Source: Bacteroidales bacterium
GTDB lineage: Bacteria; Bacteroidota; Bacteroidia; Bacteroidales; UBA932
DNA length: 50,591 bases
Direction of reading: 5' to 3'
Assembly: GCA_017445015.1 (NCBI GenBank)
Contig: JAFSVL010000091.1
Span: 1 to 50,591 of the forward strand
Shown here piece after piece: positions 11,171 to 43,814 of the stretch. The notes beneath the pieces were generated by a model. It did not search any database, was not told where the DNA came from, and saw only the letters and a list, made by a program, of their open reading frames with translations. The first letter of the stretch is position 1. Each line of letters starts with the position of its first letter. The position numbers and the translations under genes are program-made.

Positions 11171-12118
11171 TTAAAAGTTACGTTCTTTCAGGCAGGCTTC
11201 CAACTGCTCCCGGCTCATCGGAAGTTCTCCCTTGTAATTGCGGACCCATTTCACGAAGCGCCGGTTCATCTCATCGCTCCAGGCGCTGTCAATCTCGCCG
11301 GCGGTATAGACATGGGTCTTAATCATCTCCTCGCCGAACTCGTCGGAAAGTTTGGTGAACTCCGAGGTCAGCACAATATGCTCCACCAGATGCGGCGGGA
11401 TGAACAGAACGGCACCGGGTTTGGCCAGGACGGCATCTCCGGGAAGGACGATGGCATGTCCGATACGGATGGGGACATTGTAGTTGGTAAGGATGGTCTG
11501 GCGCATGTAGGACGGATCATAGCCTTTCATCCAAATATTCAGGCCCGGAATGCGGCGCAGGCGCTCTATATCCCGGATATGGCCGTAGGTTATCAGGCCG
11601 TTCCCGGTCTTGTCAAAGACCCCGCTTCCCAGGTTGGAGCCCACGGCCGTTCCCAGGAACTCCTTATTATAAGTATCCGCCACATATACATCCCCCTTAA
11701 CCAGGGAATTGATGACCCAGGACACCGTGCGCTTCTGTTGCCACATGCGGCCTTCCTTCTTGCCCTGCTCGATAATCTGGTCCTCAAGGTCCGGGCGCAG
11801 GGGCATAAACTGCGCGGTCACGGCACGGCCTACCATCACTGCGTCCTCCCGGTCGTGCAATAGCATCCAGTCCCCCTCATATTGATTCTGGTAGCCAAGT
11901 TTCATCAATTCGGCCCAGCATTCCTCGATAGTCACATGTTTTAACCTTTCCAGCAACGAATCCGGCACTTTGGGACGTCCGTCCGGGAAGCGCTCCCCCG
12001 TCCACTGGGCCGTCAGGGCCATGATGTACTCCGGAGAACCGGCAATGGCCTGGGCCAGCGCCCGGCCGGGCAACAGCGCAAATGCGGCTGCGCACACAAT
12101 CAATGCAATTCTTTTCAT
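11171..12118 (-). CDS. Exported RraA-family (HMG/CHA aldolase-like) protein
   Basis: A 315-residue protein with a clear signal peptide (MKRIALIVCAAAFALLPG, then AQA). The centre carries the RraA/4-hydroxy-4-methyl-2-oxoglutarate aldolase fold pattern: a glycine-rich stretch GTAVGSNLGSG, then GLITYGHIRD with the Arg-Asp pair used by the aldolases for pyruvate and metal binding. Later segments (GHAIVLPGDAVLAKPG) also fit the fold. RraA-type aldolases are normally cytoplasmic and shorter, so export is unusual. The start at 12118 makes an ATGA overlap with the upstream stop; an in-frame ATG at 12130 exists but lengthens the overlap. It could split a 2-keto acid derived from a decorated glycan, or have a non-enzymatic role. 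Family assignment is firm; function is not. Confidence 0.75.
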   Translation of the reverse strand: MKRIALIVCAAAFALLPGRALAQAIAGSPEYIMALTAQWTGERFPDGRPKVPDSLLERLKHVTIEECWAELMKLGYQNQYEGDWMLLHDREDAVMVGRAVTAQFMPLRPDLEDQIIEQGKKEGRMWQQKRTVSWVINSLVKGDVYVADTYNKEFLGTAVGSNLGSGVFDKTGNGLITYGHIRDIERLRRIPGLNIWMKGYDPSYMRQTILTNYNVPIRIGHAIVLPGDAVLAKPGAVLFIPPHLVEHIVLTSEFTKLSDEFGEEMIKTHVYTAGEIDSAWSDEMNRRFVKWVRNYKGELPMSREQLEACLKERNF

Positions 12119-15100
12119 ATATTTGTCCATACAATTTCCATCGTCGTTTTCCCGATTTTCACCGCCTGGCGGGCGGATGAATTGTCCAGCACTTGAATAT
12201 TTCCGGCCTTGCCGTAAATCAGGGCGAAAGCGCAGGAAGCATCCCGGGGGTTGCGTCCGTGATCCACATACAAATCCAGCAGTTCCCCTTCCCTTTCGCT
12301 GAAGACCGTTCCCTTGAACGGAAGGTATTTGACGCGCCCCGCATCCGCCCTGTACCGCTGGTCAACGCAGGTTACGACCTGCACGTCCCTCTCGCAACAG
12401 ATCCCCGCCGTCAGGCAGACGACCCCGCCGCTGAAGAAGAACCAGGCTTTGCGCGCACGCAGTCCGTCCCGCCGGTACGACATACCAATGGCCATATCGC
12501 CGCCATACATCCGGCAGACCGGATGCGGGGCGTCGTTATAAACAGGGTTTTCGCTATCCGCAGAAGGCGGCGTCGAGGGCACCGGACCGCCGTCGTCCCA
12601 AGAAGTGACGCCTGGGATGTGCTTCCAGTTCCACAGCCCGGCGATATTCTCGTATTCATCACCACGGGAACGGGTCAGCAGGCAGCCGTCGGCGGAAAAA
12701 TAGCCCTGCGCGTTCTCACCGTTCGTGCATTCGTAGCCTTTGACGAAGCGGGACTGCATCCGCAGGGACGCATACCAGCCCTTCCCGCGATAAACGGCAA
12801 AATCGGAGCAGGGATAGTAAATCCCTCCTGAGCGCCGGGGAATCTCCACGCCGAGCCGCTCCGCCGCCTGAAGGGCGCAAATCGCCTTGCCGCGCTGGGC
12901 ATTGACGAACAGCTGCCGTCCGCAGGCGTTCATATCAAAGAACCCTTGATAAACCATCTGCCCCAGACCCTTCGCGATATACTCTTTCAAAAAGGTCTTC
13001 TGCCGGTCCGTGAACGCCAGGGGCGTCCCGTCCAGGACGGCGGCCCACCAGGACAGGGAAACGGCATAGGAGAGGCCGTAGTTGCCGAACTGCAGCTGGC
13101 GCCCGTGCTGCTGGAAGGACCAGTCCGTCTGCACGCCGGCACCCGGCTTTCCAAAGCCGGCTTCGCCGGCAAGGACCGCCTGCGCTTCCCGGACCATCCC
13201 ATCATCCCCGCAGAGCAGGCCGCACATCAGTACAATTCCGGCAAGCCACACACGGTTCTGTCCGCTGCGGCCGATCCGGGCAGCGGAAAGCACTTTCAGG
13301 CAGCCCTCCAGTTCCCCGGAACCCAGTTCCTCTTTCAGGAGCAGGAAAGCCGGTGCAAGCAGACGCGGGCAACCGATTTCATTGTGCCACCAGTTGGAAC
13401 AGACTGGCGTATTCCCGCACCAAAAACGAAGGGCCTGCAGGGCCGCATCGCGGGCGGCGGCATCGCCGGTCCGGCGGTAACGGACAGCGAGCCGCTGAAG
13501 GCGGAAGCAATGGAGGGCGGGGGCCCATACGCCCCGGGAATCGTCCTGATAATCGATATCGGAAAAACTGCCGTCCGGCGTCTGGAGGGAGAGCAGCTGC
13601 GCCGCTTCCGCATCCTCCAGGGGGACCTGCAGGAAGAGTTCCCGCATATCGCAGCTGTTCTCACGACCCTCTTTCGAGAGATGCGCATATTCCGCCGCCT
13701 TCCCGGGATCGGTCTCTACGGCGAGGGTCGCCGCATTGATGGCGGCAATCAGCCGGCGCGCCAGCGGAGAGCCCTTGAATTTACGATCTTCCAACTGGCA
13801 TTCATAAAGCGAGAGCGGATTCCGGAAGGAAGTTTTCGTCAGGCGGGGCCACCAATTGAAGCGCGCGGCCGCTTCCGCACAGGGAAGGGAAACGTGCCCG
13901 GTACCGGCCTGACCATAATCCACATAAGGATACCATTGGGCGTCCGGACGGCGGGTAAAGCCGTGCGCCTCGTACCAGTCCTCCACGGGATTGCCGTAAA
14001 AATCCTTGTTTACCCGCTTCTGCTTCCGGTCGCCGCATATGACGCCGATGGCATAATTGCGCCCCGAGGGATGGGGGCTGGCAAACTTCAGGCCGGGAGT
14101 GTTCTCCGCTGCCCAGGGGCTCTCACACTCTACGCTCCCCTCCGTCTCCACATTCCAGAAGATGGTATTGACCCCGGTCCAGCCGTGGCCGGTTCCGGCG
14201 TTCCCGTGGTCCGTCACGCGGAAACCCGCGGAATTATAACAACAGTCAAAGAGCGTTCCCGTACTCCAGCGCTGGTGCGGACCGGCACCGGTCCGCATAT
14301 TGGGCCCCTGGCACTGGGTATAGACATTCGGACCGCCAGCCTTGGTGTTGGTTCCGAAACCAATGGCGGACTTTTCGCAATAGCATTTCTTGATGAGGCA
14401 GAGTTCCGCCCCTTCCAGGCCAAAACCATAGCGCCGCGCCATCGTGGGCAGGGAAACCGGATTGACAAAAGAACAGTCCTCCACGGTGACGCTGCGGGTC
14501 CCGGAGGAAAGCATCGCCGCCGCGTAACCGAAGTGCGTCACGGTGACCTCCCGGGCAAAACAATCTTCGCAGGCAATGAAAAACATCCCCCACCATGCGT
14601 GTTCCTCGTCGATTTCCACCCCATCCTGATTCTTGACCGAAGGGTCATAGTCCGAATCCAGCGTGAGGTTTTCTATCCCGCAACCTCGTACCCGCGTAAT
14701 CCTGTACTTGCTGACCGTGCCCCCGCCGTAATTTTTATCCAGGGACTGCACCAGCGGCGCGTCAAAATAAAGCCGGTTTCCGCGGATCTCCGTCACCCGA
14801 CGCGACCAGCGCATCTTCATATTCCCGTCAATCCATTGCTTGACAGGGCCCTTCTCCCTGCCGTTGGAGGCAATCCTGTCCATTCCCACGTCGGAAAGCC
14901 AGGCCGCGTTGTGCGGACGCTCCACCATCACTTCATCTCCTATGACAAAGAGACCGGTGTTTTCCACCTCCACCCAGAAGCGGCCCACCGGGCAATAATC
15001 CTCCGTTATGGCCACCTTTTCCTTGATAGCCGGCGAAGGAGCTTGGGGGGACAGGAGATAGAGGAAATGCTTCCCGAAGGAAGAACGCCCCTCTGCGCCA

Positions 15101-15609
15101 ACGACGGCCATCTTTCTCCTTTTGAACCTTTTCCCCGCGATATTGATGTATTTCTCCGGATCGTCATCCGGTTTATAGGAAGAGCAATGACCGATGACGA
15201 CCGCCGGACGCTGTATCCTCCCGCCGCACTTGAGGACGACCCCCTCGCGGCTCTCGCCCCGCAGGACCACCTTGTCCTTGTCCAGGAAAATGATGCCGCT
15301 CACGTTGTAAACGCCGTTTTTGAGCAGGACTGTACCGCCGCCCGCAGCTTTAGCCGCGCGGTCGAGGGCCTCCTGGAGAATGGCCGTTGTATCGGGATAG
15401 ACTTTACGCCGCAGCAAGTCAGCCACTTTCTCCGGGGACAGGGTCTCCGTCACGGGATAATCCGGATAGGGCAGGTCTCCGTGGCCGTAGCCTACGGTAC
15501 TGAAGTCCGGAATGATATCGACACTGAGCGTATCCGTCTGTGCCGGCGCGGAAAGCGCCGCCGCGAACAGGAGTGCAAGGCTCACCATGACGAAGTTTCT
15601 CATTTTCAT
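12115..15609 (-). CDS. Beta-helix + PL8 polysaccharide lyase fusion
   Basis: A 1164-residue secreted protein. After a signal peptide, residues about 30-620 form a pectate-lyase-like right-handed beta-helix (FSTVGYGHGD, VVLRGESRE, GAGPHQRWSTGTL) closely related to the three beta-helix lipoproteins upstream. Residues about 640-915 are the alpha-toroid of polysaccharide lyase family 8 and the rest is its beta-sandwich (NGENAQGYF, IPGVTSWDDGG). The PL8 active site is complete: Asn785 (GQNRVW), His835 (WSFQQHG), Tyr844 (FGNYG) and Arg898 (CGRQLF). Their spacing equals that of Flavobacterium chondroitinase AC (Asn175, His225, Tyr234, Arg288). PL8 enzymes eliminate at uronic acids in hyaluronan, chondroitin or xanthan. 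The start forms TAATG with the M20 stop. Confidence 0.9.
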   Translation of the reverse strand: MKMRNFVMVSLALLFAAALSAPAQTDTLSVDIIPDFSTVGYGHGDLPYPDYPVTETLSPEKVADLLRRKVYPDTTAILQEALDRAAKAAGGGTVLLKNGVYNVSGIIFLDKDKVVLRGESREGVVLKCGGRIQRPAVVIGHCSSYKPDDDPEKYINIAGKRFKRRKMAVVGAEGRSSFGKHFLYLLSPQAPSPAIKEKVAITEDYCPVGRFWVEVENTGLFVIGDEVMVERPHNAAWLSDVGMDRIASNGREKGPVKQWIDGNMKMRWSRRVTEIRGNRLYFDAPLVQSLDKNYGGGTVSKYRITRVRGCGIENLTLDSDYDPSVKNQDGVEIDEEHAWWGMFFIACEDCFAREVTVTHFGYAAAMLSSGTRSVTVEDCSFVNPVSLPTMARRYGFGLEGAELCLIKKCYCEKSAIGFGTNTKAGGPNVYTQCQGPNMRTGAGPHQRWSTGTLFDCCYNSAGFRVTDHGNAGTGHGWTGVNTIFWNVETEGSVECESPWAAENTPGLKFASPHPSGRNYAIGVICGDRKQKRVNKDFYGNPVEDWYEAHGFTRRPDAQWYPYVDYGQAGTGHVSLPCAEAAARFNWWPRLTKTSFRNPLSLYECQLEDRKFKGSPLARRLIAAINAATLAVETDPGKAAEYAHLSKEGRENSCDMRELFLQVPLEDAEAAQLLSLQTPDGSFSDIDYQDDSRGVWAPALHCFRLQRLAVRYRRTGDAAARDAALQALRFWCGNTPVCSNWWHNEIGCPRLLAPAFLLLKEELGSGELEGCLKVLSAARIGRSGQNRVWLAGIVLMCGLLCGDDGMVREAQAVLAGEAGFGKPGAGVQTDWSFQQHGRQLQFGNYGLSYAVSLSWWAAVLDGTPLAFTDRQKTFLKEYIAKGLGQMVYQGFFDMNACGRQLFVNAQRGKAICALQAAERLGVEIPRRSGGIYYPCSDFAVYRGKGWYASLRMQSRFVKGYECTNGENAQGYFSADGCLLTRSRGDEYENIAGLWNWKHIPGVTSWDDGGPVPSTPPSADSENPVYNDAPHPVCRMYGGDMAIGMSYRRDGLRARKAWFFFSGGVVCLTAGICCERDVQVVTCVDQRYRADAGRVKYLPFKGTVFSEREGELLDLYVDHGRNPRDASCAFALIYGKAGNIQVLDNSSARQAVKIGKTTMEIVWTNI

Positions 15610-17061: not shown

Positions 17062-19587
17062 TCAATTTCCGGAAGCCCTGCGGTCCTGCAGCTGGCTCAG
17101 GTACAGCGATTCCGGATGGTCGAAACTGGAAATCGAGAAGCGGGGCCACCAACTGTACGCCGCGGCGGCATCCGCGCAGGGAAGCTGGACGTGCGCCGTG
17201 CCCCCCGCACCGTATTCCACCCGGGCCGGATACCACTTGGGATCGGGGCGGGAAGGATAACCCGCCTTTACATAGGCGTCTTCATTCTTCCCGGCAAAGT
17301 AATTCACCCGGCTGCCGCCCAGCAGGCCGATGCAGTAGTTGCGTCCGGAAGGATAGGGACTGACGAAGGACAGGGCGGGGGTATTCTCCTTCGCCCAGGG
17401 ACTTTCGCACTCGATTTTCCCTTCCGTCTCCACATTCCAAAAAATGGTGTTGGCGCCCATCCAGCCGTGCCCGGACCCGGAATTGCCGTGGTCCGTACAG
17501 CGGAAGCCGGCGGAATTGTAACAACAGTCGTAAAGCGTTCCGGTACTCCAGAACATATGCGGGCCGGCGCCCGTGCGCATCGTCTCCGCCCGGCATTGGG
17601 TGAAGACATTGGGGCCGGCGCCTTTCCCTGCCGTGGAGAAGCCCATCGCAGCCCGCTCGGCATAGCAATCCCGGAACAGGCACAAATCCGCACTTTCCAC
17701 GACAAAGCCGTAACGGCGGGCACCGCCGGGGTAAGAGACCGGCGATACATAAGAACAGTTTTCCACGCTGATACAGCGGGCGCCGCTTTTCGCCACCACC
17801 GCGGCATAGCCCAGGTGCCGGGCCGTCACATTGCGCGCCCAGCAGTCTTCCGCATCCGTAAAGATGATGCCGTACCAGGCGTGGTCCTCGTCGCTGGGCT
17901 CCGTGAGCCCCGTCCGGGGATCGACGTCCGTGATATCGGGATTGTATTCGGAATCGATGGTGAGGGATTCCACGCCGCATCCGCGCTGCCGCGCCAGATT
18001 GTAAAGCGCCAGCGTTCCCCCGCCGTAATGGGCGTCCAGCGCCTGGACCAGGGGGGCGTCCAGCCGGATCCGGGTCCCCTCGACGGACACCACTTTCCGT
18101 GTCCAGCTCAGCGACATGTTCCGCTGGCTCCATTGCACGGCATCCCCGGAAATGGAGTTCATTCCGATATCGTTAATCCAGTCATTGTTGTGGGGACGGA
18201 TCACCATCACCTCGCTGCCCACGGCAAACGGTGCAGGATTGTCCACCACAATCGTATATCTGCCCACGGGGCAATACGCCTCGGACACGGGAATCTGGGA
18301 AAAAATCAGGGGCGTTCCCGCCACGGGCTGTACCAGATTCAGGATTTTGCGGCCTTCGCGCGCCTCCACCTCCAATTGGGAAACCGCCAGTTGCCGGTCC
18401 ATCGACGCACCCACGACGATGCCGGGACGAAGCTCCGTACCGGTCAGTTTAAGTACCGTATTTTCACGGCTTTCTCCCCGCAGGACCACCTTGCTCCGGT
18501 CCAGGAAAAGGGTGCTGCCCACTTCATAAGTCCCGTCACCGAGCAGCACGGCGCCGCCTTCCGGGTGAGCCTCCGCCACCCGGTCGATCGCCGCCTGGAT
18601 GGCTTCTGTCCTGTCCGAACCGATTTGCGGGGTCAGCGTTTCGTACACGGGATAGTCGGGAAGGGATTCATCCCCGTGCCGGTAGCCCACGGTGCTGAAA
18701 TCCGGGAGAATGTCTTCCGTGGACAAGACCTCCGGCTCTATGGAGACCAAATCCACGAACGCGCCTTCGAGGGTGATGTCCACCCCGTCGGGCTCGAAAT
18801 CCTCGCAGCCCGCATCGGCACAGATATAGGCCTTCAGGTGCGCCAGATCCAGGTTTACCACGAAGAAATCGTGACTCTCCAGGTCCAGCGGGGTATCGTT
18901 GGAGGTAATGCTGTACAGGAAACTGTCCGTCTTGACGACAAATTCAATCTGCCGGTATTGCCCCTTCTCCAGGCAGGCATAGACCTGCCCCGCGTAGGTG
19001 CGTTTGTCCGCCGGTTTGTCCGCGCCGATTTCAAACGGCGTCTCCAGACGCACCGCCACCGCATCCTCCATTCCGGAGGGCTGCACGGAAACGGATTGCA
19101 GCTTTTCTCCCTGCTCCCGCGGGTTGTACACATTCAGCGCGAAGGCGGAACCCACGGAAGCAAAGTGCAGGACGGCGATATCGCCCTCAATCGCGGCTTC
19201 CGCGGCGATGGGATAGTATGCCCCGCTCAGCACGCCGGCTTCCGCCTGCGTCTGCTGCCGGGCGAAGACAAAGCCCGGCTCCGCATAGGAACCGGAAGTT
19301 TCGGGGTAAGTCACCTTTACCCGCGTCGCCTGCACGGGGACCTCTACGACGATGTTTTCCCCCGCCCGATAGCTCGCGCCCGCGATGCTGCCGTCCGCGT
19401 CGTTATAGACGGAAACGGCATCCCCCTCGCACCACTGCAGGGCGGTCCGCCCGGCATTCAGGGCGGTCTTCACCTCCGCCTCCGAAAACGAGAGATACAA
19501 GGGCCGCAGCTGCGCGGGTTCTTCCCGCACGCAAGCGGAAAAGGCCAGCGCCGCAACCCAAAAGGCCCATACCCTTCTCTCCATCAT
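17062..19587 (-). CDS. Fimbrillin-like / beta-helix lipoprotein 1
   Basis: An 841-residue lipoprotein (signal ending ALAFSACV). Residues about 20-240 resemble a Bacteroidota fimbrillin-like domain (LSFSEAEVKT, LQWCEGDAVSVYND, GSAFALNVYNP). Residues about 255-841 are a pectate-lyase-like beta-helix starting with FSTVGYRHGD, with VVLRGESREN, GAGPHMFWSTGTL and GSGHGWMGANTIFW. The helix is closest to the one in the PL8 fusion: both share the CCYNSAGF and NVETEG segments. It may be a surface-displayed lyase or a glycan-binding protein; catalytic residues cannot be assigned. I start at the ATG-ATG at 19587-19582, because the longer frame needs a TTG at 19596. It follows a 54-residue gene by 12 bases. 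Confidence 0.75.
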   Translation of the reverse strand: MMERRVWAFWVAALAFSACVREEPAQLRPLYLSFSEAEVKTALNAGRTALQWCEGDAVSVYNDADGSIAGASYRAGENIVVEVPVQATRVKVTYPETSGSYAEPGFVFARQQTQAEAGVLSGAYYPIAAEAAIEGDIAVLHFASVGSAFALNVYNPREQGEKLQSVSVQPSGMEDAVAVRLETPFEIGADKPADKRTYAGQVYACLEKGQYRQIEFVVKTDSFLYSITSNDTPLDLESHDFFVVNLDLAHLKAYICADAGCEDFEPDGVDITLEGAFVDLVSIEPEVLSTEDILPDFSTVGYRHGDESLPDYPVYETLTPQIGSDRTEAIQAAIDRVAEAHPEGGAVLLGDGTYEVGSTLFLDRSKVVLRGESRENTVLKLTGTELRPGIVVGASMDRQLAVSQLEVEAREGRKILNLVQPVAGTPLIFSQIPVSEAYCPVGRYTIVVDNPAPFAVGSEVMVIRPHNNDWINDIGMNSISGDAVQWSQRNMSLSWTRKVVSVEGTRIRLDAPLVQALDAHYGGGTLALYNLARQRGCGVESLTIDSEYNPDITDVDPRTGLTEPSDEDHAWYGIIFTDAEDCWARNVTARHLGYAAVVAKSGARCISVENCSYVSPVSYPGGARRYGFVVESADLCLFRDCYAERAAMGFSTAGKGAGPNVFTQCRAETMRTGAGPHMFWSTGTLYDCCYNSAGFRCTDHGNSGSGHGWMGANTIFWNVETEGKIECESPWAKENTPALSFVSPYPSGRNYCIGLLGGSRVNYFAGKNEDAYVKAGYPSRPDPKWYPARVEYGAGGTAHVQLPCADAAAAYSWWPRFSISSFDHPESLYLSQLQDRRASGN

Positions 19588-19599
19588 TTTTCCCAACCC

Positions 19600-19764
19600 C
19601 TACAAGCCATACACAGTGTCATCTGTATCCACACCACCCCAGTTGGAGCCGGTATCTACAAGGCTTTCTTCCCAACTTGACCCGGTGACGCTGGCTGCAA
19701 TCACGGGGCCGTCCGGGCAGAAACAACAATTTTCGCAGAAGGGAGGTATATAATCAACTTTCAT
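19600..19764 (-). CDS. Tiny Cys-rich protein 1 (54 aa), upstream of beta-helix lipoprotein 1
   Basis: An ATG-to-TAG frame of 54 residues filling the gap between two lipoprotein genes (14 bases after one, 12 before the next). It begins MKVDYIPPFC, has four cysteines at 10, 13, 14 and 16, and ends DTGSNWGGVDTDDTVYGL. A second tiny gene at 22343-22501 encodes a clear paralogue with the same ending pattern. That conservation, with matching position and spacing, supports a real gene. There is no signal peptide or membrane segment. I do not recognise a family with a known function; short proteins starting MK..Y..P often sit beside fimbrillin genes in Bacteroidota. A leader peptide that couples translation is an alternative. 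Confidence 0.75.
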   Translation of the reverse strand: MKVDYIPPFCENCCFCPDGPVIAASVTGSSWEESLVDTGSNWGGVDTDDTVYGL

Positions 19765-19778
19765 ATCCGACGGTCATT

Positions 19779-22328
19779 TTACAGATGAACATAATTGGAA
19801 ACCTTGTCGCCGGCGGCAAGCCGCTTGTTCAGCTGGGATTCATAGAGGGATTCCTCCTCTTCCGGCTGCAGGGGCCGGCATTCCCCGTCGATACGGGTTC
19901 CGTTGACCACACTGTCATACACAAGCGACCCGTCCGGACCATAGCCGGGATTGGGATATTCCCTGCCGGGCGAAAGCGTTGCCGCCCCGCCGCCGGGGTA
20001 TTTGCAGCCAATCGCATAGTTCTTTCCCGTCACCCAGGGCGTCTGGACCGAGAACTTGGCGGCGGTACAGCACCAGAACACCTGGTTGGTGCCTTGCCAG
20101 CCGTGGCCGGTACCGGAGTTGCCCGCATCGTAGGCTTTCATCGAATTATTGGTAGAAACATTGTCATAGAGCGTACCCGTCGCCCAGCGCTGGTGAGGCC
20201 CCACATCCGAAAGGGAGTTGGTCCCCGTGCAGCGCGAGAAGACATTGGGCCCGGGAATCTGTGCGCCGGTGGCAAACTGGTGCCGGTCGCCGTCGCTGGT
20301 ACAGTTGCGCACCAGGCACTGCTGTCCGCCACTGATGTGGAAGGCATAGCGAAGGCCGCCCGTCAGGTAGCCCGTCGGCTCTTTCTGGTCGCAATCCACG
20401 ACGGAAATATTTCTGGCTTCCTCCGAGATGGACACGGCGGACATGCAGAAGCGGCGTGTCTCCACATTCTTGACCCAACAGTGTTCCGCACCGTGGAAGA
20501 CAATGGCGCTGGTGGCGTGGTAGATGTCTCCCCTGACGCCATATGCATCCGAATCCCGGTCGGGATTGTAATCGGAAACCAGGAGGAGGTTCTCGATGCC
20601 GCACTCCTTGATACGCGTCCGCTTGTAATGCCGGAGTTCGCCGCCGCCAAAGGGCTGTGTAATGCTCATCACCAGCGGGGTATCGAGATAAACCCGGTTC
20701 GCAACCACGGCTTTGACCGTCCGCTCCCAGCACATTGTAAAATTGGCAGGATCCCACTGGTTGATCGTGCCCTGGTCATCAAGCGCCTTGATGATCATAT
20801 CCATCTTGAGGGCGTGAATCCAGGGCTGGGTACCGGGACGCCACACGACCACATTGTCCCCCACATTGAAGCTCGAGGCATCGTCAACCGTTACGAAACG
20901 GCTGCCGCAGAAGGCGGAATCCACAATGGCGGGACCGGCGCCCATCGTCTCCACGGAAGAGGAATTCAAGGCTCTGCCCCGGACATTCCAGGCATCCAAA
21001 TGATACTCTATCTGGCGTCCCGCCTTGTTGTTGACGCCGATGGTGGAAATCCGGAGCGCCAACACATTCGTCTTGATCCGGGTACTCTTGCTCTTGGTAA
21101 TCCCGATATTGATCAGCGGACGGACTACCGGGTAATACGCATTGTTAGCCGTAGGGTCTACCTCGTCGAGGGTCAGCGTGCCCCGCGCGAAAATCTCCGT
21201 CTGCCGGTTGCCGGACCCGCGAAGGATGATGCCGTTCTTGTCCAGGACCAGCAGGTCGTCCACGATATAACGGCCCTGCCGGAACAGGATGACCGTCCCT
21301 TCGGAGGCGTTGTCAATCGCGTTCTGGATCATCGGCGTATCATCGCCGCCGCTGGGCGCATCCAGTTGCACGACATTGTTGTAATCCGGGAACTCATCTT
21401 CGCCCCAGTGGTAACCCACCGTACTGAAATCCGGAATCTCGTCCGTCGTGAGCTGCTCGTCCGGCACTTCGTGAATCAGTTCGATGAAGCCGGACACCGT
21501 GAGCGTAACATCCTCCTCTTCGAGGCTGAAGCCCTCGCAGCCCGTATCAAACGTCGCATAGACCTTCATATTCGCCAGGTCCAGGTTGAGCACAAAGAAA
21601 TCGTGGCTCTCCAGGTCCAGCACGGTCTCATTGGAGGTAATGCTGTACTGATACTTGTTCGTCCGGACGACGAAGGCAATCTGGCTGTACTGGCCCTTCT
21701 CCAGACAGGCATACACCTGCTTGGCGTAGCCTCGCTTGTCCGCCGGTTTGTCCGCGTCGATGGCAAAGGGCGTCTCCAGGCTCACCTGTACGGCCTGTTC
21801 CATGCCGGAGGGCTGTACGGAAATGCTCCGGAACTCCTCGCCCTGCTCCTTCGGATTGTACACGTTCAGCGCGAACGCCGAACCGACGGATTCGAAATGC
21901 AGGGCCGCGGCATCATTGATAATCTGCGCTTCCGCGACGATGGGATAATATTCTCCGTTGAGCGCGCCGGCCGTCGCCTGCGTCTGTTTCCGGGGGAAGA
22001 CAAAGCCGGGGTCGGCGTAGGTACCTGCCGTTTCCGGGCAGGTCGCCTTCACCCACTTGGCATCTACGGGAACGGAGACACTGATGTTCCCGCCCGCCTG
22101 GTAGGTCGCCCCCGCAATGCTGCCGTTATAATCATTGTAAACGCTGATAGCGTCCCCCTCGCTCCACTGCAGGGCGGAATGGTCCGGTTTCAGCGTCGTC
22201 TTTACCGCCACCTCCGAAAAGGAAAGGCTTACCTGACGGCATTCCGCAAGTTCTTCCTGCGTACAGGCGGAAAAGAGCAACCCGGCCGCCAGCACCGTCA
22301 AGACAATGAAGGAATTACTATATTTCAT
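19779..22328 (-). CDS. Fimbrillin-like / beta-helix lipoprotein 2
   Basis: An 849-residue lipoprotein (signal ending GLLFSACT). The N-terminal third is fimbrillin-like (LSFSEVAVKT, LQWSEGDAISVYND, GSAFALNVYNP) and nearly parallels lipoproteins 1 and 3. From about residue 295 it is a beta-helix beginning FSTVGYHWGEDEFPDY, with GIILRGSGNRQTEIFARG, GPHQRWATGTLYDN and GTGHGWQGTNQVFW, ending SLYESQLNKRLAAG. Its helix is much closer to that of lipoprotein 3 than to lipoprotein 1. The ATG at 22328 is chosen; the frame can extend two codons to a TTG. A 52-residue gene lies 14 bases upstream. It is probably surface-exposed and either cleaves or binds an acidic glycan; the activity is inferred from fold only. 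Confidence 0.75.
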   Translation of the reverse strand: MKYSNSFIVLTVLAAGLLFSACTQEELAECRQVSLSFSEVAVKTTLKPDHSALQWSEGDAISVYNDYNGSIAGATYQAGGNISVSVPVDAKWVKATCPETAGTYADPGFVFPRKQTQATAGALNGEYYPIVAEAQIINDAAALHFESVGSAFALNVYNPKEQGEEFRSISVQPSGMEQAVQVSLETPFAIDADKPADKRGYAKQVYACLEKGQYSQIAFVVRTNKYQYSITSNETVLDLESHDFFVLNLDLANMKVYATFDTGCEGFSLEEEDVTLTVSGFIELIHEVPDEQLTTDEIPDFSTVGYHWGEDEFPDYNNVVQLDAPSGGDDTPMIQNAIDNASEGTVILFRQGRYIVDDLLVLDKNGIILRGSGNRQTEIFARGTLTLDEVDPTANNAYYPVVRPLINIGITKSKSTRIKTNVLALRISTIGVNNKAGRQIEYHLDAWNVRGRALNSSSVETMGAGPAIVDSAFCGSRFVTVDDASSFNVGDNVVVWRPGTQPWIHALKMDMIIKALDDQGTINQWDPANFTMCWERTVKAVVANRVYLDTPLVMSITQPFGGGELRHYKRTRIKECGIENLLLVSDYNPDRDSDAYGVRGDIYHATSAIVFHGAEHCWVKNVETRRFCMSAVSISEEARNISVVDCDQKEPTGYLTGGLRYAFHISGGQQCLVRNCTSDGDRHQFATGAQIPGPNVFSRCTGTNSLSDVGPHQRWATGTLYDNVSTNNSMKAYDAGNSGTGHGWQGTNQVFWCCTAAKFSVQTPWVTGKNYAIGCKYPGGGAATLSPGREYPNPGYGPDGSLVYDSVVNGTRIDGECRPLQPEEEESLYESQLNKRLAAGDKVSNYVHL

Positions 22329-22342
22329 ATGCAAACCGCTTC

Positions 22343-22501
22343 TTATAAACCAAATATGGAATCATCCTCGTCAATACCGCCCCAGTCCGAACCGGTATCC
22401 TGCAGACTGCCGTCCCAGCTGAACCCGCTGAGAGCGAGCACGGAAACATTCTGTGCATAGCAGCGTTCCCCGCAGGAAGGAGCCGTATAACCCACTTTCA
22501 T
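22343..22501 (-). CDS. Tiny Cys-containing protein 2 (52 aa), upstream of beta-helix lipoprotein 2
   Basis: A 52-residue frame from ATG at 22501 to TAA, three bases after the preceding stop and 14 bases before the next start. It begins MKVGYTAPSC, has cysteines at 10 and 14, and ends DTGSDWGGIDEDDSIFGL. It aligns along its length with the tiny protein at 19600-19764: same start, same SW..SL.DTGS.WGG core and same acidic tail. Conservation of the pair, each directly before a paralogous fimbrillin/beta-helix gene, suggests the cassette was duplicated as a unit. No signal peptide is seen. The function is unknown. Confidence 0.75.
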   Translation of the reverse strand: MKVGYTAPSCGERCYAQNVSVLALSGFSWDGSLQDTGSDWGGIDEDDSIFGL

Positions 22502-22504
22502 ACC

Positions 22505-23806
22505 CTACTCAAAATACAGTTCGATACGCGCGATCTGTGTATTCTTCGCAGCAGAATACAGGTAGAGCGGAGAATTTTCCACGGCGAAGGAAGGAGCATA
22601 GGTCATTACTCCGGTCTTGACACTCATATTCGGGACGACGTCTCCCGCGGGAGAAGCGGTGGAAGACACGGCCATATTCTTGTCATAGTCCCCGCGCACC
22701 ATCGCGCCAAAACTCCTGAGCCGCATTCCTTCGATGGTAGGCAGCTGGAGGTAACTGACCGATCCGTTGTTGTCAAAACGGAGACAGTTGTAACCGCCCA
22801 CAGAGACCTTCCGGTGCGTGCTGGAAGTGACGATGCTGTATTCGTTGCCTTCATAGGTGAAGGTATAGGTCTTTCCTTCGACCGTAGTATTGGATTTCGG
22901 GAGGTCCGGTGTAAAGACCGTCGTATGGAAATCGATGATGATGGAAACGGACTGGGAAATGCCGCACTGGATGCCGGACAAGGTGCCCGCCTCCAGGTTG
23001 CGCACCGCGGTATTGCGGAAGCGGAGAACCTCGGCCTCGGAAAGGGCGACCTCGACGATATAGCCTTCGGAAAGGGCGACCGGTGCCACGCAGAAATAGA
23101 ACTTCTCCGTCTCGCCGGGGTTGATGCTGATGGGCGAACCGTCCGCGGTCTCCAGCACGATGGACTCGCTGCCGTCTTCCGCCACCGTTACGACGGGCTG
23201 GTCCGGATTCTGCAGATCCACGGACACGGCGCCGGCAATCTTCTCTCCTTTCGCCGAGGAGAGCGTCACGGACTGGACGGAGACCGGGAGATTCCCGTTG
23301 GGCTTCACCTCCAGGCAGAGCACGGCGCAGGCATAACGGAACTTCAGTTTATCGTCCGACGTTACCGCCGTCAGCAGCACGGACTTCGGGGCGTAAGAGC
23401 CCTTCCGATACTGCTGTTCTGCCGGAATGACACTGTTCAGCGTACGGCCGGACAGGCTGTTCCCCACACGGTAAGGCACCGCCGCCACCGTCTCCACCGT
23501 TTCTCCGGGGCCGATGGGTGCAAGGTCCTGGAAGGTAATGGATCCGACGGTCGCCCCGGCATTGCCGGTAAAGCGCGCGGCGATGTTCAAGGGAGAATCT
23601 CCCCGGAAAATGCTGACGGAATCACTTTTGTTCCAAATGGTTTTTCCCGTACTGGAACTCAACACAACCCTCGATTCGGATTCGGCGCAGGTCGCCGTCA
23701 TGGTGACCAGCCGGCCCGTCTGCGGAGCCTCGGATTCCGCCTGCTTGTTGCAGGACAGCAGCAGCGCAGCCAGGGCGCAAACACTGAAAACGATTCTTTT
23801 CCTCAT
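22505..23806 (-). CDS. Fimbrillin-like lipoprotein with recurring C-terminal domain
   Basis: A 433-residue lipoprotein (ALLLSCNK). Residues about 25-280 have the fimbrillin-family pattern (TIWNKSDSVSIFRG, then long beta-rich segments). The last ~140 residues (about 22505-22930) form a separate beta-rich domain with LQLPTIEGMRLRS and a C-terminal ARIELYFE strand. That domain is shared with four other lipoproteins in this window. No enzyme motif is visible. It lies between two fimbrillin/beta-helix genes, 24 bases after the upstream one and 3 bases before tiny protein 2. A surface glycan-binding or assembly role is the simplest inference. Confidence 0.7.
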   Translation of the reverse strand: MRKRIVFSVCALAALLLSCNKQAESEAPQTGRLVTMTATCAESESRVVLSSSTGKTIWNKSDSVSIFRGDSPLNIAARFTGNAGATVGSITFQDLAPIGPGETVETVAAVPYRVGNSLSGRTLNSVIPAEQQYRKGSYAPKSVLLTAVTSDDKLKFRYACAVLCLEVKPNGNLPVSVQSVTLSSAKGEKIAGAVSVDLQNPDQPVVTVAEDGSESIVLETADGSPISINPGETEKFYFCVAPVALSEGYIVEVALSEAEVLRFRNTAVRNLEAGTLSGIQCGISQSVSIIIDFHTTVFTPDLPKSNTTVEGKTYTFTYEGNEYSIVTSSTHRKVSVGGYNCLRFDNNGSVSYLQLPTIEGMRLRSFGAMVRGDYDKNMAVSSTASPAGDVVPNMSVKTGVMTYAPSFAVENSPLYLYSAAKNTQIARIELYFE

Positions 23807-23830
23807 AGCACTGTATTTTTATTTTTCCTT

Positions 23831-26377
23831 TTATAACGATACATAATTCGAAACCCTGTCTCCGGCAGCAAGCCGAATTCTCAACTGGGCTTCATAGAGC
23901 GATTGCTCCTCTCCCGGTTCCAGCGGACGGCAGACACCGGAGATACGGGTTCCGTTGACCTCGCTGTCGTACACGACGGTCACCCCGTCAGGCGCATAGC
24001 CCGGATTGGGATAATTCCTGGCATTCGACAGGGTGGCAGGCGCGCCGCCGGGGAAGGTACAGCCAATTACATAATTCTTTCCGGTCACCCACGGCGTCTG
24101 CGCCGCGAACTTGGAGGCCGTACAGCACCAGAACACCTGGTTGGTGCCCTGCCAGCCGTGGCCCGTGCCTGAGTTGCCGGCATCGATGGCTTTCATCGAC
24201 GCATTCGTGGAGACATTGTCATAGAGCGTACCCGTGGCCCAGCGCTGGTGAGGCCCCACGTCCGAATGGCCGTTGGTACTGGTGCAGCGCGAGAAGACAT
24301 TGGGTCCCGGAATCCGGGCGCCGGTGGCAAACTGGTGCCGGTCGTCGTCCGTCGTACAGTTCCGTACAAGGCACTGCTGGCCGCTGCTGATATGGAAGGC
24401 ATAGCGCAGCCCGCCCGTCAGATACCCCGTCGCCTCTTTCTGTACACAATCCAGCACCGTAATGTTCTTGGCCCCCGCGGACATCTCCACGGCGGACTCG
24501 CAGAAACGGCGCATCTCCACATTCCGGACCCAGCAGTGTTCGGCCCCGTAGAAGACAATCGCGCTGGTGGCGTGATAGGGATCCCCGTGGTAGGTCACGC
24601 CCCCGCTGAGGTAATCGCGGTCGGGATTGTAGTCGGAGGTCAGGAGCAGGTTTTCAATTCCGCATTCGTGGATTCGCTTCTGGTTGCAGTGAAGGACTGA
24701 ACCGCCGCCAAACTCCTGGGTAACACTCATGACCAGCGGCGTGTCCAGGTATAGCCGGTCTGCGACTATGGCCTTAACCGTACGCTCCCAACGCATCGTA
24801 TAGTCGTTCGGACTCCACTGGTAAATCTTGCCGATATCGTCCAGGGCCTTGATAATCATATCCATCTTGATGGCGCGGATCCAGGCCTGGGTCCCCGGGC
24901 GCCAGATGACCACTTTGTCCCCGACGTTGAAACTCGACGCATCGTGCACCGTCACGAAACGGCTGCCGCAGAAAGCGTCCTCCTCAATGGGAGAGCCCGT
25001 CCCCAACGATTCCGTGAAAGCGGAATACATCCGGGTCCCCCGGATAGTCCACGCATCCTCGTGTTCTTCAATCCGGCGGCCGCTGAGGTTGTTCACCGTA
25101 ATCGCGGCAATAGAATAGGAAACCTGCGCCGTGCGGGCGCCCTGCGCGTTTGTCTTGCTGACCCCCACATTGATGAGGGGCCTGACGGGCGCATAACGGT
25201 AAGCGGAGGACTTCGGGTCCACCTTGTCCAGCGGAACGGTCCCCCGGGCGAAGATTTCCGTCTCCCGGTTGCCGTGGCCACGCAGGATGATGCCGTTCTT
25301 GTCCACAATCAGCAAGCTGTCCACGATATAGCGTCCCTTGGCAAACTGAATCACCGTCCCTTCGGACGCCGCGTCGATCGCCGCCTGAATCATCGGCGTA
25401 TCGTCTCCGCCGCTGGGCGCAGCCAGCTGCACGGTGGTCCCGAAATCAGGGAAATCGTCTTCACCCCAGTGATAGCCCACCGTACTGAAATCCGGAATCT
25501 CATCCTCCGTAATCTGTGCATCGGGAAGCAGCTCCACCAGGTCCACGAAGCCCGCTTCGGGGAAGGTCACATCCACCGCTTCATCCAGGGTGAAACCCTC
25601 GCAGCCCGCCTCAAAATATACATAGGCCTTCAGGTGCGCCAGATCCAGATTCACCGCCAGAAATTCATACTGCTCCAGGTCCATCACCGTCTCGTTGGAC
25701 GTGATGCTGTACTGCCGCTTGTCGGTACGGACCGTAAAGGCAATCTTGTTGTATTGTCCTTTCTCCAGACAGACATACACCTGACCCTCGTAGGTCCGCT
25801 TGTCCGCCGGCTTGTCCGCGCCGATCTCAAACGGCGTCTCCAGATTCACCTGGATGGCCTTGCTGCGCTGCGCCGGCTTCACGCTGACCCGCTGCAGTTG
25901 CTCTCCCGCTTCCATCGGATTGTATATATTCAGCGCAAAGGCGGAACCTACGGAACGGAACTGGAGAGCGGCCGCATCGTTCACGATTTCCGCTTCGGCG
26001 ACAAGGGGGTAATTCACCCCGTTGAGCACGCCGGCCGCCGTCTGCGACTGCACTGCCGGGAAGACAAAGCCCGGATTGGCATAACTGCCCGCCGTTTCGG
26101 GATATGTCGCCTTGAGGCGGGTAGCCGCCACGGGGACGGACACACCGATATTGCCGCCGGCCTGGTAGGCCGCTGTCGCGATGCTGCCGTCCACATCATT
26201 GTAAACGGAAACGGCATCCCCCTCACACCAGCGCAGGAGCGTCCGCTCCGGGTTCAGGCTTGTCCGGACCGCCATGTCCGAAAAGGACAGCCGCACCTGC
26301 CGGCACTCGCTGAGTTCAGCGGGTGTACAGCCGGCCGCCAGCGCGGCCGCCAACAGCACAATCCAACTTTTATTCAA
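23831..26377 (-). CDS. Fimbrillin-like / beta-helix lipoprotein 3
   Basis: An 848-residue lipoprotein (signal ending ALAAGC, Cys17). It has the same layout as lipoproteins 1 and 2: a fimbrillin-like domain (LSFSDMAVRT, LRWCEGDAVSVYND) and then a beta-helix from about residue 290 (FSTVGYHWGEDDFPDF, GIILRGHGNRETEIFARG, GPHQRWATGTLYDN, SLYEAQLRIRLAAG). It is the nearest relative of lipoprotein 2. The only plausible start is a TTG at 26377, overlapping the upstream stop by 8 bases; no ATG lies between the in-frame stop and the lipobox. Unlike its two paralogues it has no tiny gene in front and directly follows a BACON-like lipoprotein gene. Function as for its paralogues: a candidate lyase or binding protein. 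Confidence 0.75.
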   Translation of the reverse strand: MNKSWIVLLAAALAAGCTPAELSECRQVRLSFSDMAVRTSLNPERTLLRWCEGDAVSVYNDVDGSIATAAYQAGGNIGVSVPVAATRLKATYPETAGSYANPGFVFPAVQSQTAAGVLNGVNYPLVAEAEIVNDAAALQFRSVGSAFALNIYNPMEAGEQLQRVSVKPAQRSKAIQVNLETPFEIGADKPADKRTYEGQVYVCLEKGQYNKIAFTVRTDKRQYSITSNETVMDLEQYEFLAVNLDLAHLKAYVYFEAGCEGFTLDEAVDVTFPEAGFVDLVELLPDAQITEDEIPDFSTVGYHWGEDDFPDFGTTVQLAAPSGGDDTPMIQAAIDAASEGTVIQFAKGRYIVDSLLIVDKNGIILRGHGNRETEIFARGTVPLDKVDPKSSAYRYAPVRPLINVGVSKTNAQGARTAQVSYSIAAITVNNLSGRRIEEHEDAWTIRGTRMYSAFTESLGTGSPIEEDAFCGSRFVTVHDASSFNVGDKVVIWRPGTQAWIRAIKMDMIIKALDDIGKIYQWSPNDYTMRWERTVKAIVADRLYLDTPLVMSVTQEFGGGSVLHCNQKRIHECGIENLLLTSDYNPDRDYLSGGVTYHGDPYHATSAIVFYGAEHCWVRNVEMRRFCESAVEMSAGAKNITVLDCVQKEATGYLTGGLRYAFHISSGQQCLVRNCTTDDDRHQFATGARIPGPNVFSRCTSTNGHSDVGPHQRWATGTLYDNVSTNASMKAIDAGNSGTGHGWQGTNQVFWCCTASKFAAQTPWVTGKNYVIGCTFPGGAPATLSNARNYPNPGYAPDGVTVVYDSEVNGTRISGVCRPLEPGEEQSLYEAQLRIRLAAGDRVSNYVSL

Positions 26378-27524
26378 CGCCGATATAGGTTAAAATGAAT
26401 TTGATGTTTCCTTCACCGGAGACCTTAAGATACCGGTCGGGAGAAGTGCCCGACTGAGGATAGGCACTCACATCCAGCGTCTTCGGAAGCTGGGTCTTGT
26501 CCATCGAGAAACTGGCCAATGAAGTCGCACCGTCCGTTATCTCGTATTTAGGCGTCCTTGAAGAATACTGGGCAGTAATCGTCATCTCGGAAAGCGTATA
26601 TCCTGCGATATTCGGCAGTTTGATCGATTTGTTGGAGGCGAGACACAGATAAGGTTGGGCTGAACTCCAGCGATAGGCGTCGCCGTTGAACAGGTAGGCC
26701 GGATAGTCTTCAAGCCAGAAATCAAAGTCGATTCCCGCAGTAGATCCGCGTAAAGGAAGCATTTGCGCCTCTCCTCCTACCATCCTCACGAATTTGGTTG
26801 CGTCGGTACAATCCAGACGAAGCACTTTGAGCGCACTCTGACGGATGATCATCGTAAGAGGGGCCACCGTCGGGGCGAACGCCGCTTCCGGACGGAATTC
26901 CGCCTTGTATTCCACGGGGTTCTCGGTTGGATTCGCCGGGAAAGAGAAGACCAGATGATGGAGGGACGGAGCCAGCGGATCATCCTCGATGGTATAGCTC
27001 AACCCTTCCGTCAGGCATTCAATCTGATAGCCGATATTGACAGTGAAATCCACCTTGGCCGACACGGAGGTGGAAGGCACGCTCTGCTCCAGCGGGTCCA
27101 CGAAGAATTTCGGCAGCGCTCCGTCCTGCAGCAGGCTGAAGTCCAACTTGCGGCCGAAGACCGTCCACTGATCCGGATCGTCCACGTCCAATTCCGCATC
27201 GGTGGAAACGGAATAGGAGAAACTGCGCCCTTCAAAGGAAGTATTTTCCGCCACGGCAAGCAGCACGGAGGCGGGACCGGAACCTTCGGTCACCTCGGGG
27301 GTAAGCCCTTCGTCCGCCGTGATGGTCCACGGGACGTTGGCCTCGATAGCGAGGACGACGACGCCCGCATCGGCGCTTATTTCATCGGCGGAAGCGACAG
27401 CGTCAAAATACTGATAGCACTTGGCCTTGACGGTGCCGGCCTTCGGATTGTCCTTCTTGCAGGAGACCACGGGCAGAAGCGCCGCACAAAGCGCCAGAAC
27501 GGCGATTTTATCAAAAATTTTCAT
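26370..27524 (-). CDS. BACON-like surface lipoprotein, possible SGBP
   Basis: A 384-residue lipoprotein (VVSCKKD) directly after SusD, the usual position of a surface glycan-binding protein. The N-terminal two thirds carry Ig-like beta-strands with a BACON-type pattern (NVPWTITADEG, then a second similar unit). The C-terminal ~150 residues (26370 to about 26825) are the recurring domain: LDCTDATKF, FDFWLEDYPAY, IKLPNIAGYTL, KFILTY. This copy is closest to the two tandem copies in the protein at 40328-42190. It starts 3 bases after the SusD stop. A role in binding the target polysaccharide at the cell surface is inferred from position and domain type. Confidence 0.75.
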   Translation of the reverse strand: MKIFDKIAVLALCAALLPVVSCKKDNPKAGTVKAKCYQYFDAVASADEISADAGVVVLAIEANVPWTITADEGLTPEVTEGSGPASVLLAVAENTSFEGRSFSYSVSTDAELDVDDPDQWTVFGRKLDFSLLQDGALPKFFVDPLEQSVPSTSVSAKVDFTVNIGYQIECLTEGLSYTIEDDPLAPSLHHLVFSFPANPTENPVEYKAEFRPEAAFAPTVAPLTMIIRQSALKVLRLDCTDATKFVRMVGGEAQMLPLRGSTAGIDFDFWLEDYPAYLFNGDAYRWSSAQPYLCLASNKSIKLPNIAGYTLSEMTITAQYSSRTPKYEITDGATSLASFSMDKTQLPKTLDVSAYPQSGTSPDRYLKVSGEGNIKFILTYIGVE

Positions 27525-27527
27525 AGG

Positions 27528-29291
27528 CTATTCTCTGGAAAAGTCATTCTTGTCAGCCGTGCTCATCGCGGAATTGGCGGTGAGTTCCTCCTTGGGGAAT
27601 TCGCAGAGCAGCGCGCCACGAATCTTGATATCGTCCTCGGCAAAGTCGTAGCGGAAATCGCTGCGGCCGAAATACGTGGCCATGTAATTCTCGCCGGCAT
27701 CCCCCATTACTTCGAAGAAGAAGTTGCGGGCCTGGAGGATGTTCTCCTTGAACCATTTTCCGCCGAGCCGGCGCACCTCGTAGTACGCATGGCTCTCGCC
27801 GCAAAGTTCAAAGAGCTTGTCCCAGACGATGTTGTCCACGCTCACCTGCTCCATATCCCAGAGCGGGGTCCCGCCGCGCTTATGCACCTCGTTCACCAGG
27901 TCCAGGGCCACGGCCGCGCCGGCCTCCGTATGCATCGCCGCCTCAGCGGCAATGTAATACAGCTCGGCGAAGCGCATATAGTAGAAGTCCGCCACATCGG
28001 GTTTGCCCTGGTAGGTCGGCGTGTTGTACTTGCGGAAGAACGGCATAAAATTCGTCAGGTTCGAACCGCTGACGCTGGGATAGATGCGCGTAGCCGTGGT
28101 GGCATTGCAGGGGATGAACTCGTTGTAAATCAGCGCCACGTCTATCCGCGGGTCAGCACAGACCTTGTAGAGGGAATCCTTCTTGCAGCCCTTGTCCCAG
28201 GCGTAGCGGCGGCACCACTCGTTGAAGAAGAAGCGGCTGGGCCGGACATTGCCGGAACGGGAAACCGTGGTCCAGTTGACCTCCACCTCCACGTCGGGCG
28301 GGAAGGTGGGCAGGGAACGCGTCGCCGTGTAGTTGCCCGTACTGAAGACCTCGGACTGGATGGTGATGATCCGCTCGTCCAGGTTCCAGCAGTCGCGGCC
28401 GCGGGCGTCCAGATAGCCGACCTTCCAGCGGTAGAGATCCTTGAAGGCGAGGGCCAGCGCGTACGGTCCGTTTTCAATGACATCGGTGGCCGTATCGTAG
28501 CACAGTTTCCAGGCCTTGGCCTTGTCCGTCCCGATTTCGTCGGCCGCAAACACCGGCTTGCGCTCCGGGCGGGTTTCGTCGTAGAAATTGAAGTTCGAAG
28601 GATCCTGGTCCACTTCCAACAGGGAGGCAATCTGCAGGTAAACCGCGGAGAGCAGCGCCTTCGCCGCCCACTTGTTGGAACGGCCCTGGGTGGGGGTAAC
28701 CTGCGCTACGCGCGCGGGGTCCCGCATCCCGTCCCAGGCGTCCTTGAGGTCGGCCACGATCTGGTCATATACCTTATAATAAGGCGTGCGCGGGATGGCG
28801 TGGAAGGCCGTCTCGTTGGACTCCAGCGCCAGGGGCACGTCTCCGTACAGACGCACAGCCGCCAGATAAATCAGCGCCCGGTACATCTTGCACTCGGCTT
28901 CGATTTCCCGCTTGTAGGCCTCGTCCACCGGGCTTTCCGGCAAATGATGCAGCAGCACGTTACAGTTGTTGATCGCCGTGTAGATGTTGCCATACAGGTC
29001 GATGTTCAGGCTCATCGACGTGTAAGTCATATTGGTGATGATACACTTCCAGCGGTTGTCTTCGACGCGCCCGTTGGGACTGCCGAAGTGCACCAGGCCG
29101 GAACAGGACTCCAGGTTTTCCGGATAGTCCTTGGTAAAGAAGTTCAGGCTGGCCTGGATACCGCGGATGTTCGCTTCCAACGCCGCCTCCGTATCGTAGG
29201 TGTTGGTCAGGGACGTGGTCGTATGCTCGTCCAGGAAAGTACAGGATGCGAGCGCAAGGGCCGTGAATGCGATAAGGATATATTTTTTCAT
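27528..29291 (-). CDS. SusD-like starch-binding outer-membrane lipoprotein
   Basis: A 587-residue SusD/RagB-family lipoprotein (LALASCTFLDEH). It has the usual N-terminal SusD segment (ALEANIRGIQASLN) and helical TPR-like pairs with RFAELYYIAAEAA. The C-terminal part is typical too (LVNEVHKRGG, ESHAYYEVRRLGG). SusD proteins form a hinged lid over the SusC pore and capture oligosaccharides. The true start is the ATG at 29291, which opens the signal peptide; the frame continues 33 codons upstream without one. It lies 13 bases after SusC. It is the only SusD in the window, although there are two TonB-dependent receptors. Confidence 0.95.
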   Translation of the reverse strand: MKKYILIAFTALALASCTFLDEHTTTSLTNTYDTEAALEANIRGIQASLNFFTKDYPENLESCSGLVHFGSPNGRVEDNRWKCIITNMTYTSMSLNIDLYGNIYTAINNCNVLLHHLPESPVDEAYKREIEAECKMYRALIYLAAVRLYGDVPLALESNETAFHAIPRTPYYKVYDQIVADLKDAWDGMRDPARVAQVTPTQGRSNKWAAKALLSAVYLQIASLLEVDQDPSNFNFYDETRPERKPVFAADEIGTDKAKAWKLCYDTATDVIENGPYALALAFKDLYRWKVGYLDARGRDCWNLDERIITIQSEVFSTGNYTATRSLPTFPPDVEVEVNWTTVSRSGNVRPSRFFFNEWCRRYAWDKGCKKDSLYKVCADPRIDVALIYNEFIPCNATTATRIYPSVSGSNLTNFMPFFRKYNTPTYQGKPDVADFYYMRFAELYYIAAEAAMHTEAGAAVALDLVNEVHKRGGTPLWDMEQVSVDNIVWDKLFELCGESHAYYEVRRLGGKWFKENILQARNFFFEVMGDAGENYMATYFGRSDFRYDFAEDDIKIRGALLCEFPKEELTANSAMSTADKNDFSRE

Positions 29292-29304
29292 TGCCGTACG
29301 AACT

Positions 29305-36319: not shown

Positions 36320-36336
36320 AGATGTATCGGTTATCA

Positions 36337-43804: not shown

Positions 43805-43814
43805 AGTTCCGGAA

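Follow-up and report, generated by a model that had tools for sequence, protein, structure and literature searches.

The window analysed here covers positions 1 to 50,591 of contig JAFSVL010000091.1 of the Bacteroidales bacterium assembly GCA_017445015.1 (UBA932), and it includes three lipoprotein genes of one layout, located in what is a polysaccharide utilization locus (Table 1). Each of the three proteins has a lipobox (FSAC in lipoproteins 1 and 2, AAGC in lipoprotein 3), a predicted fimbrillin-type domain of about 245 residues, a low-confidence linker and a predicted right-handed beta-helix of about 550 residues. The motifs EGDA[VI]SVYND and GSAFALN[VI]YNP are common to all three N-terminal parts, and GPH..W.TGTLYD and G.GHGW.G.N..FW to all three C-terminal parts. 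The genes and their two-domain layout agree with a preliminary description of the sequence, only that the helix part, there given as about 570 residues, was found to be slightly shorter.

Lipoprotein 2 begins with an ATG at 22328, its open frame extending to a TTG at 22334. Lipoprotein 3 begins with a TTG inside the end of the preceding gene, and this overlap of eight bases (26370-26377) points to coupled translation of the two genes. The TTG and the overlap are readable also on contig C50 of the same genome bin. Comparison with the orthologues in the metagenome-assembled genome (MAG) RUG11938 gave ratios of nonsynonymous to synonymous divergence (dN/dS) of 0.10-0.30, which supports the coding reading and indicates purifying selection. 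The long plus-strand frames are interpreted as lying antisense to the three lipoprotein genes.

The lipoboxes occur together with SusC- and SusD-like neighbours, the SusD recognised by eye, which is the combination looked for in surface lipoproteins. The residues after the lipidated Cys are VREE, TQEE and TPAE, all acidic and inexactly matching the export consensus K-(D/E)2 or Q-A-(D/E)2 given in the available part of PMC12632263.

Table 1. Features of the window, with positions counted from the first base of the contig.
Feature	Position	Strand	Basis or remarks
Lipoprotein 1 (P0003)	17062..19587	-	fimbrillin-like domain and beta-helix, subgroup 1
Lipoprotein 1, fimbrillin-like domain	18802..19533	-	lipidated Cys22 to about residue 265; AlphaFold model, PDB comparison
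Lipoprotein 1, right-handed beta-helix	17065..18708	-	residues about 297-844
Lipoprotein 2 (P0004)	19779..22328	-	fimbrillin-like domain and beta-helix, subgroup 2
Lipoprotein 2, fimbrillin-like domain	21531..22265	-	motifs; Foldseek match to 3ufi
Lipoprotein 2, right-handed beta-helix	19782..21443	-	partly low-confidence model
Lipoprotein 3 (P0005)	23831..26377	-	fimbrillin-like domain and beta-helix, subgroup 2
Lipoprotein 3, fimbrillin-like domain	25592..26329	-	motifs
Lipoprotein 3, right-handed beta-helix	23834..25504	-	beta-helix
Hybrid two-component regulator	1203..5123	-	by eye
Helix (subgroup 1) fused to PL8 lyase	12115..15609	-	Lyase_8 E 1.6e-36, Lyase_8_N E 1.5e-20
Accessory lipoprotein between lipoproteins 3 and 2	22505..23806	-	fimbrillin-like N-terminus and small C-terminal domain
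Accessory lipoprotein behind SusD	26370..27524	-	no Pfam match; C-terminal domain common with 40328-42190
SusD-like lipoprotein	27528..29390	-	by eye and position behind SusC
SusC-like TonB-dependent transporter	29305..32490	-	scanned
Second SusC-like protein	32503..34845	-	by eye; weak tblastn similarity to second-copy SusC
BACON-domain lipoprotein	34850..36430	-	BACON E 6.4e-09
GH88-type unsaturated uronyl hydrolase with DUF4861	38406..40328	-	profile scan
Accessory lipoprotein	40328..42190	-	fimbrillin-like N-terminus and two copies of small C-terminal domain
Accessory lipoprotein	42380..43927	-	fimbrillin-like N-terminus and small C-terminal domain

Fold and kinship of the two parts

When the AlphaFold model of the fimbrillin-type domain of lipoprotein 1 was compared with the PDB, all 17 of the 17 best rows were fimbrial or cell-adhesion pilin-type proteins. 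Also lipoprotein 2 matched such a structure with Foldseek (3ufi, E 7.9e-04), the match lying inside a poor full-length model. The models thus support a fimbrillin fold over the whole N-terminal domain, as had been proposed in the preliminary description. With the Pfam family Mfa_like_1, no match at E ≤ 1 was obtained for the three proteins and the gathering score was not reached. A profile comparison with Mfa_like_1 gave 0.3% directly and 92.6% once intermediates were included (0.1-0.6% in the reversed controls), so that the sequence kinship is supplied by the intermediates and not by the direct comparison. The Mfa_like_1 alignment included 18 loci hand-picked from 30, three others forming a separate group, and one of the 18, having no lipobox by the rule of the script, was left out of the profile comparison.

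A C-terminal donor strand at the protein end, a trait of type V stalk pilins, was found in none of the three lipoproteins, which all end in the beta-helix. In the model a low-confidence loop with Lys or Arg (residues 19-31) comes after a strand at 9-16, and a protease might cut there. A basic residue in the form [RK][TVS] was found between the Cys and W..GD in 32 of 35 modules; by this crude rule, which settled on a downstream Cys in two or more rows, seven of 42 rows were uncounted (three without a found lipobox, four without W..GD). The residue may be merely structural. According to the available part of PMC5954841, Mfa1 is processed by Rgp at Arg49, and the groove that FimA requires for strand exchange is covered by its N-terminal strands ahead of the site.

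For the C-terminal part the models support a right-handed beta-helix of the pectate-lyase-like, carbohydrate-active fold, the full-length and helix model of lipoprotein 2 being of low confidence. This part of the preliminary description was upheld by the structure comparison. The helix is distantly related to PL29. The PL29 model NF058554 of NCBIfam (cut-off 1100 bits) gave 21 bits for lipoprotein 1 and no match at E ≤ 1 for lipoproteins 2 and 3, and DUF4955 gave no match at E ≤ 1 in any of the three. In the helix tree a long branch of 1.49 parts the window helices from PL29, and together with their closest kin the window helices form one clade (support 0.947).

Five positions are near-invariant among 40 aligned helices: His606, Trp717, Trp746 and Trp754 in 39 each, and Asp724 in all 40. 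The helix of lipoprotein 1 is without a His that 36 of the 40 have and that is residue 685 in lipoprotein 2. The His of the GHGW motif is poorly conserved, which slightly lowers our confidence in the role proposed below. The helices could be non-catalytic and, with their lyase fold, serve surface glycan binding or adhesion. We regard this as unlikely, given the near-invariance of the five positions, the PL8 fusion in the window and the several relatives joined to glycan-degrading domains.

Different histories of the two parts

The fimbrillin parts are 68.9% (lipoproteins 1-2), 64.7% (1-3) and 66.0% (2-3) identical, and the helices 36.1% (1-2), 36.3% (1-3) and 73.0% (2-3), the helix of lipoprotein 1 being 54.9% identical to that of the PL8 fusion. 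The identity shift falls at the linker, and between lipoproteins 2 and 3 the conservation of the helix is no lower than that of the fimbrillin part. The contrast of the pairs 1-2 and 2-3 gave z = 7.2, computed from rounded identities. Synonymous divergence (dS) of the fimbrillin part was 0.83 (1-2), 0.86 (1-3) and 1.04 (2-3), and that of the helix 1.68 (1-2), 2.02 (1-3) and 0.82 (2-3), values above 1 being near saturation. The identities bear out two observations of the preliminary description, the division of the helices into two subgroups (lipoprotein 1 with the PL8 fusion, and lipoprotein 2 with 3) and the likeness of the fimbrillin parts. These comparisons of sequences support different histories for the two parts and a mosaic exceeding chance. 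Domain swapping, hinted at in the same description, is one fitting account, in which two helix lineages received a common cassette; the other is homogenisation of the cassette by gene conversion.

Contigs C50 and C20 of this genome bin carry a second collinear copy of the locus. Its enzymes and transporters are overall 71-89% identical to those of the window (GH28 89%, GH88 82%, SusC 81%, SusD 74%), and its surface accessory lipoproteins only 39-58%. C50 and C20 each have a gene at one end, and these two genes, which to judge from the window are probably in tandem, share their first 141 bases exactly under unrelated upstream sequence; both contigs stop at the same base. Assemblers commonly use a word length of 141 bases, so the identity probably continues beyond them. 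The identical fimbrillin starts speak for recombination and suggest gene conversion in the second copy. The two contigs could also be contamination of the bin, because RUG12515 has an 85% identical stretch.

A further near-identical locus is present in RUG11938, with 94% DNA identity over 20 kb. The RUG assemblies are presumably rumen genomes, from which a rumen origin of the window would follow. The helices of the three lipoproteins are 98-99% identical to their orthologues in RUG11938, and the helix of the PL8 fusion 88%.

A single joining of fimbrillin and helix, followed by gene conversion homogenising the copies and involving no domain swap, comes close to an even chance in our estimate, although falling a little short of it. 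This history agrees with the grouping of the window helices in a single clade with their nearest relatives and with the exactly shared starts of the two second-copy genes, and it is compatible with the functional explanation favoured below. However, the PL8 fusion, sister of helix 1, is without a fimbrillin domain, and the window copies are about equidistant in their fimbrillin dS, so that no recent conversion is seen there.

Surrounding locus and distribution of the parts

The scans covered 21 of the 24 listed window genes, and the regulator, the SusD-like and the second SusC-like protein were named by eye. In reading order, the genes for SusC and SusD are followed by an accessory lipoprotein, lipoprotein 3, another accessory lipoprotein, lipoproteins 2 and 1, an M20 peptidase and the helix-PL8 fusion, the last having a signal peptide without a lipobox. 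Upstream are the second SusC, the BACON lipoprotein, a 688-residue protein, GH88/DUF4861, two fimbrillin-type lipoproteins, GH28 and GH2, and downstream RraA-like, beta-lactamase-like, DUF6259 and GH127 proteins, the hybrid regulator and GH43. No sulfatase was detected among the scanned genes, which argues against a sulfated glycosaminoglycan as the substrate. The lipoprotein at 22505-23806, with a weak Mfa_like_1 match under the cut-off (E 0.032), and the BACON lipoprotein are both probable glycan-binding proteins.

The five accessory lipoproteins (22505-23806, 26370-27524, 34850-36430, 40328-42190 and 42380-43927) have end domains of about 150 residues with similar last parts, and N-termini which differ, being either fimbrillin-like or BACON. 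The end domain of the second of these and both copies in the fourth are clearly related (36-44% identity), the others weakly or uncertainly. The tandem domains of 40328-42190 are 43.7% identical, and its counterpart on C50, a frame of 446 residues, seemingly has a single copy. The 688-residue protein (36337-38403) had no match in Pfam, NCBIfam or PDB sequences and is 80% identical in the second copy; by eye, it looks like an uncharacterised heparinase-type lyase. At the window edge, 48759-50249 encodes a DUF4886 (SGNH-type) protein with no in-frame fimbrillin part found there, and elsewhere in the genome DUF4886 sits behind a fimbrillin module.

The helix was detected in 33 of 295 genomes of the order and 12 of 249 genomes of the family, the own genome being in both samples and the matches being weak only (E above 1e-6) in eight and two of these, respectively. 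The loci retrieved comprised 30 matches in the order search and 20 in the family search, and the fimbrillin model at E 0.01 matched none of the retrieved helix frames beyond the own genome, RUG11938 and RUG12515. Matches to the fimbrillin module, many of them weak, were obtained from four of the 295 and 58 of the 249 genomes. The C-terminal partners, inspected for a few of the family-wide module proteins, included BNR/sialidase-like, DUF4886 and GLUG with GDSL in the own genome, GLUG with a sub-threshold DUF4957 match in the same genus, a metallophosphoesterase in a different Bacteroidales MAG and, in the same family, parts judged by eye to be fn3-like and FISUMP-like; one module protein of another family had no clear Pfam match. 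Such occurrence on several unrelated domains is as expected of a spacer.

Among 34 helix relatives scanned, 16 had DUF6298, two GH44, one GH26 and at least eight a sorting tail of the type IX secretion system (T9SS), the last count being a lower bound as some frames end at the stretch edge. DUF6298 is an uncharacterised domain, here in an enzyme-like setting. T9SS tails are scarce in the genus (one weak match in the own genome, 0-2 in each of 18 others and none in ten of these), and other genomes of the order had 30-131 in 11 of 12 cases and none in the twelfth. It is plausible that the helix is displayed elsewhere via T9SS and here via a lipoprotein spacer.

The lipoproteins might instead belong to type V pili as their tip pilins, with a fimbrillin domain that caps a stalk-pilin filament and a helix that forms a ligand-binding head. 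This is improbable in view of the three helix-bearing copies in one locus, the module on unrelated domains and the lack of any match to an Mfa2-type anchor pilin in the genome (79.75% complete), and the basic loop residue, being general among the modules, is not specific to these proteins. The polymerising system suggested in the preliminary description is not supported either, as the proteins end in the helix instead of a donor strand, the roughly 80% complete genome gave no Mfa2 match and the module occurs on several unrelated domains. A protease-switched use is conceivable because a C11 protease is encoded in the genome and the loop residue is basic, although the genome had no Mfa2 match. 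In that case a surface clostripain would cut behind the first strand, and the lyase would be shed or strand-exchanged onto other fimbrillin-type lipoproteins. Such retention of a prepilin switch we hold to be quite improbable; if it is real, surface enzymes from many loci of this family would form an interchangeable array under the control of a protease.

Proposed role and comparison with known systems

In our view the three lipoproteins of this polysaccharide utilization locus rather probably degrade glycans at the cell surface, the pilin fold serving as a spacer. Of the display and glycan degradation or binding proposed in the preliminary description, the setting and the carbohydrate-active fold are in agreement. 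The signal peptide would be cut at the lipobox and the Cys would anchor the protein in the outer membrane. The fimbrillin-type domain may keep the enzyme off the membrane, as has been proposed for BACON and the N-terminus of BT3328, and a probably flexible linker would carry the predicted helix. The fold, the PL29 kinship and the PL8 fusion suggest that the helix cleaves a uronic-acid polysaccharide, lipoprotein 1, without the conserved His, perhaps only binding it. From the gene content, the fragments would be imported via the adjoining SusC/SusD and finished by PL8 and GH88. The fimbrillin part would be an exchangeable cassette put on two old helix lineages, via swapping or homogenising recombination.

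A building block of pili thus seems to have acquired a second use, as an interchangeable mount for surface enzymes. If this is true, the fold of type V pilins, which is familiar from filament subunits, serves also as an exchangeable surface-enzyme holder, and this in a family in which the present genus is nearly devoid of T9SS-sorted proteins. A further suggestion is that 'fimbrillin-like' names in these genomes need not imply pili. The basic residue that most modules keep close to the place where prepilins are cut is a directly testable feature.

A search of open-licence papers gave none that links fimbrillin with glycan degradation; in the available part of PMC12131861, fimbrillin-like proteins are mentioned a single time, among adhesion factors. 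With type V pilins (FimA, Mfa2, Mfa3 and cell-adhesion structures of Bacteroides, for example 3ufi) the lipoproteins share the fold over both domain halves, the lipoprotein precursor and a loop with a basic residue behind the first strand. The pilins differ in that here the C-terminus is a helix of 550 residues, no anchor pilin was found in the genome and Pfam Mfa_like_1 is unmatched. The helix relatives in other Bacteroidales, with T9SS tails or DUF6298, share the helix family and the conserved positions, but unlike the window proteins none of them matched the fimbrillin model. BACON, in the available part of PMC6994673 a proposed N-terminal spacer of surface glycan-binding proteins, has the same proposed role and one representative in this locus, but it is another domain family and was not matched by the three lipoproteins.

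The closest plan is that of BT3328 (PL29), a surface lyase of a glycosaminoglycan locus of Bacteroides thetaiotaomicron. In the same part of PMC6994673, its N-terminal region of about 300 residues is proposed as a 'spacer' and is present also in a glycan-binding protein, and the locus includes SusC/D, PL8, GH88, a hybrid regulator and sulfatases. The own genome encodes a full-length BT3328-like PL29 protein (C78:217840-221176; DUF4988 and DUF4955; 971 bits, under the cut-off) adjoining a gene that by eye resembles a sulfatase. The proposed spacer-and-lyase plan, SusC/D, PL8, GH88 and a hybrid regulator are common to both loci, and the helices are distantly related. However, the BT3328-like proteins have DUF4988 at the N-terminus (four of five scanned) and DUF4955 at the helix (five of five), neither of which is found in the window proteins, and their spacer shows no similarity to the fimbrillin domain (profile comparison 0.3-2.2%). 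As far as this source goes, the layout has been described before in its plan and not in its parts, and the domain combination is accordingly new in parts and known in plan.
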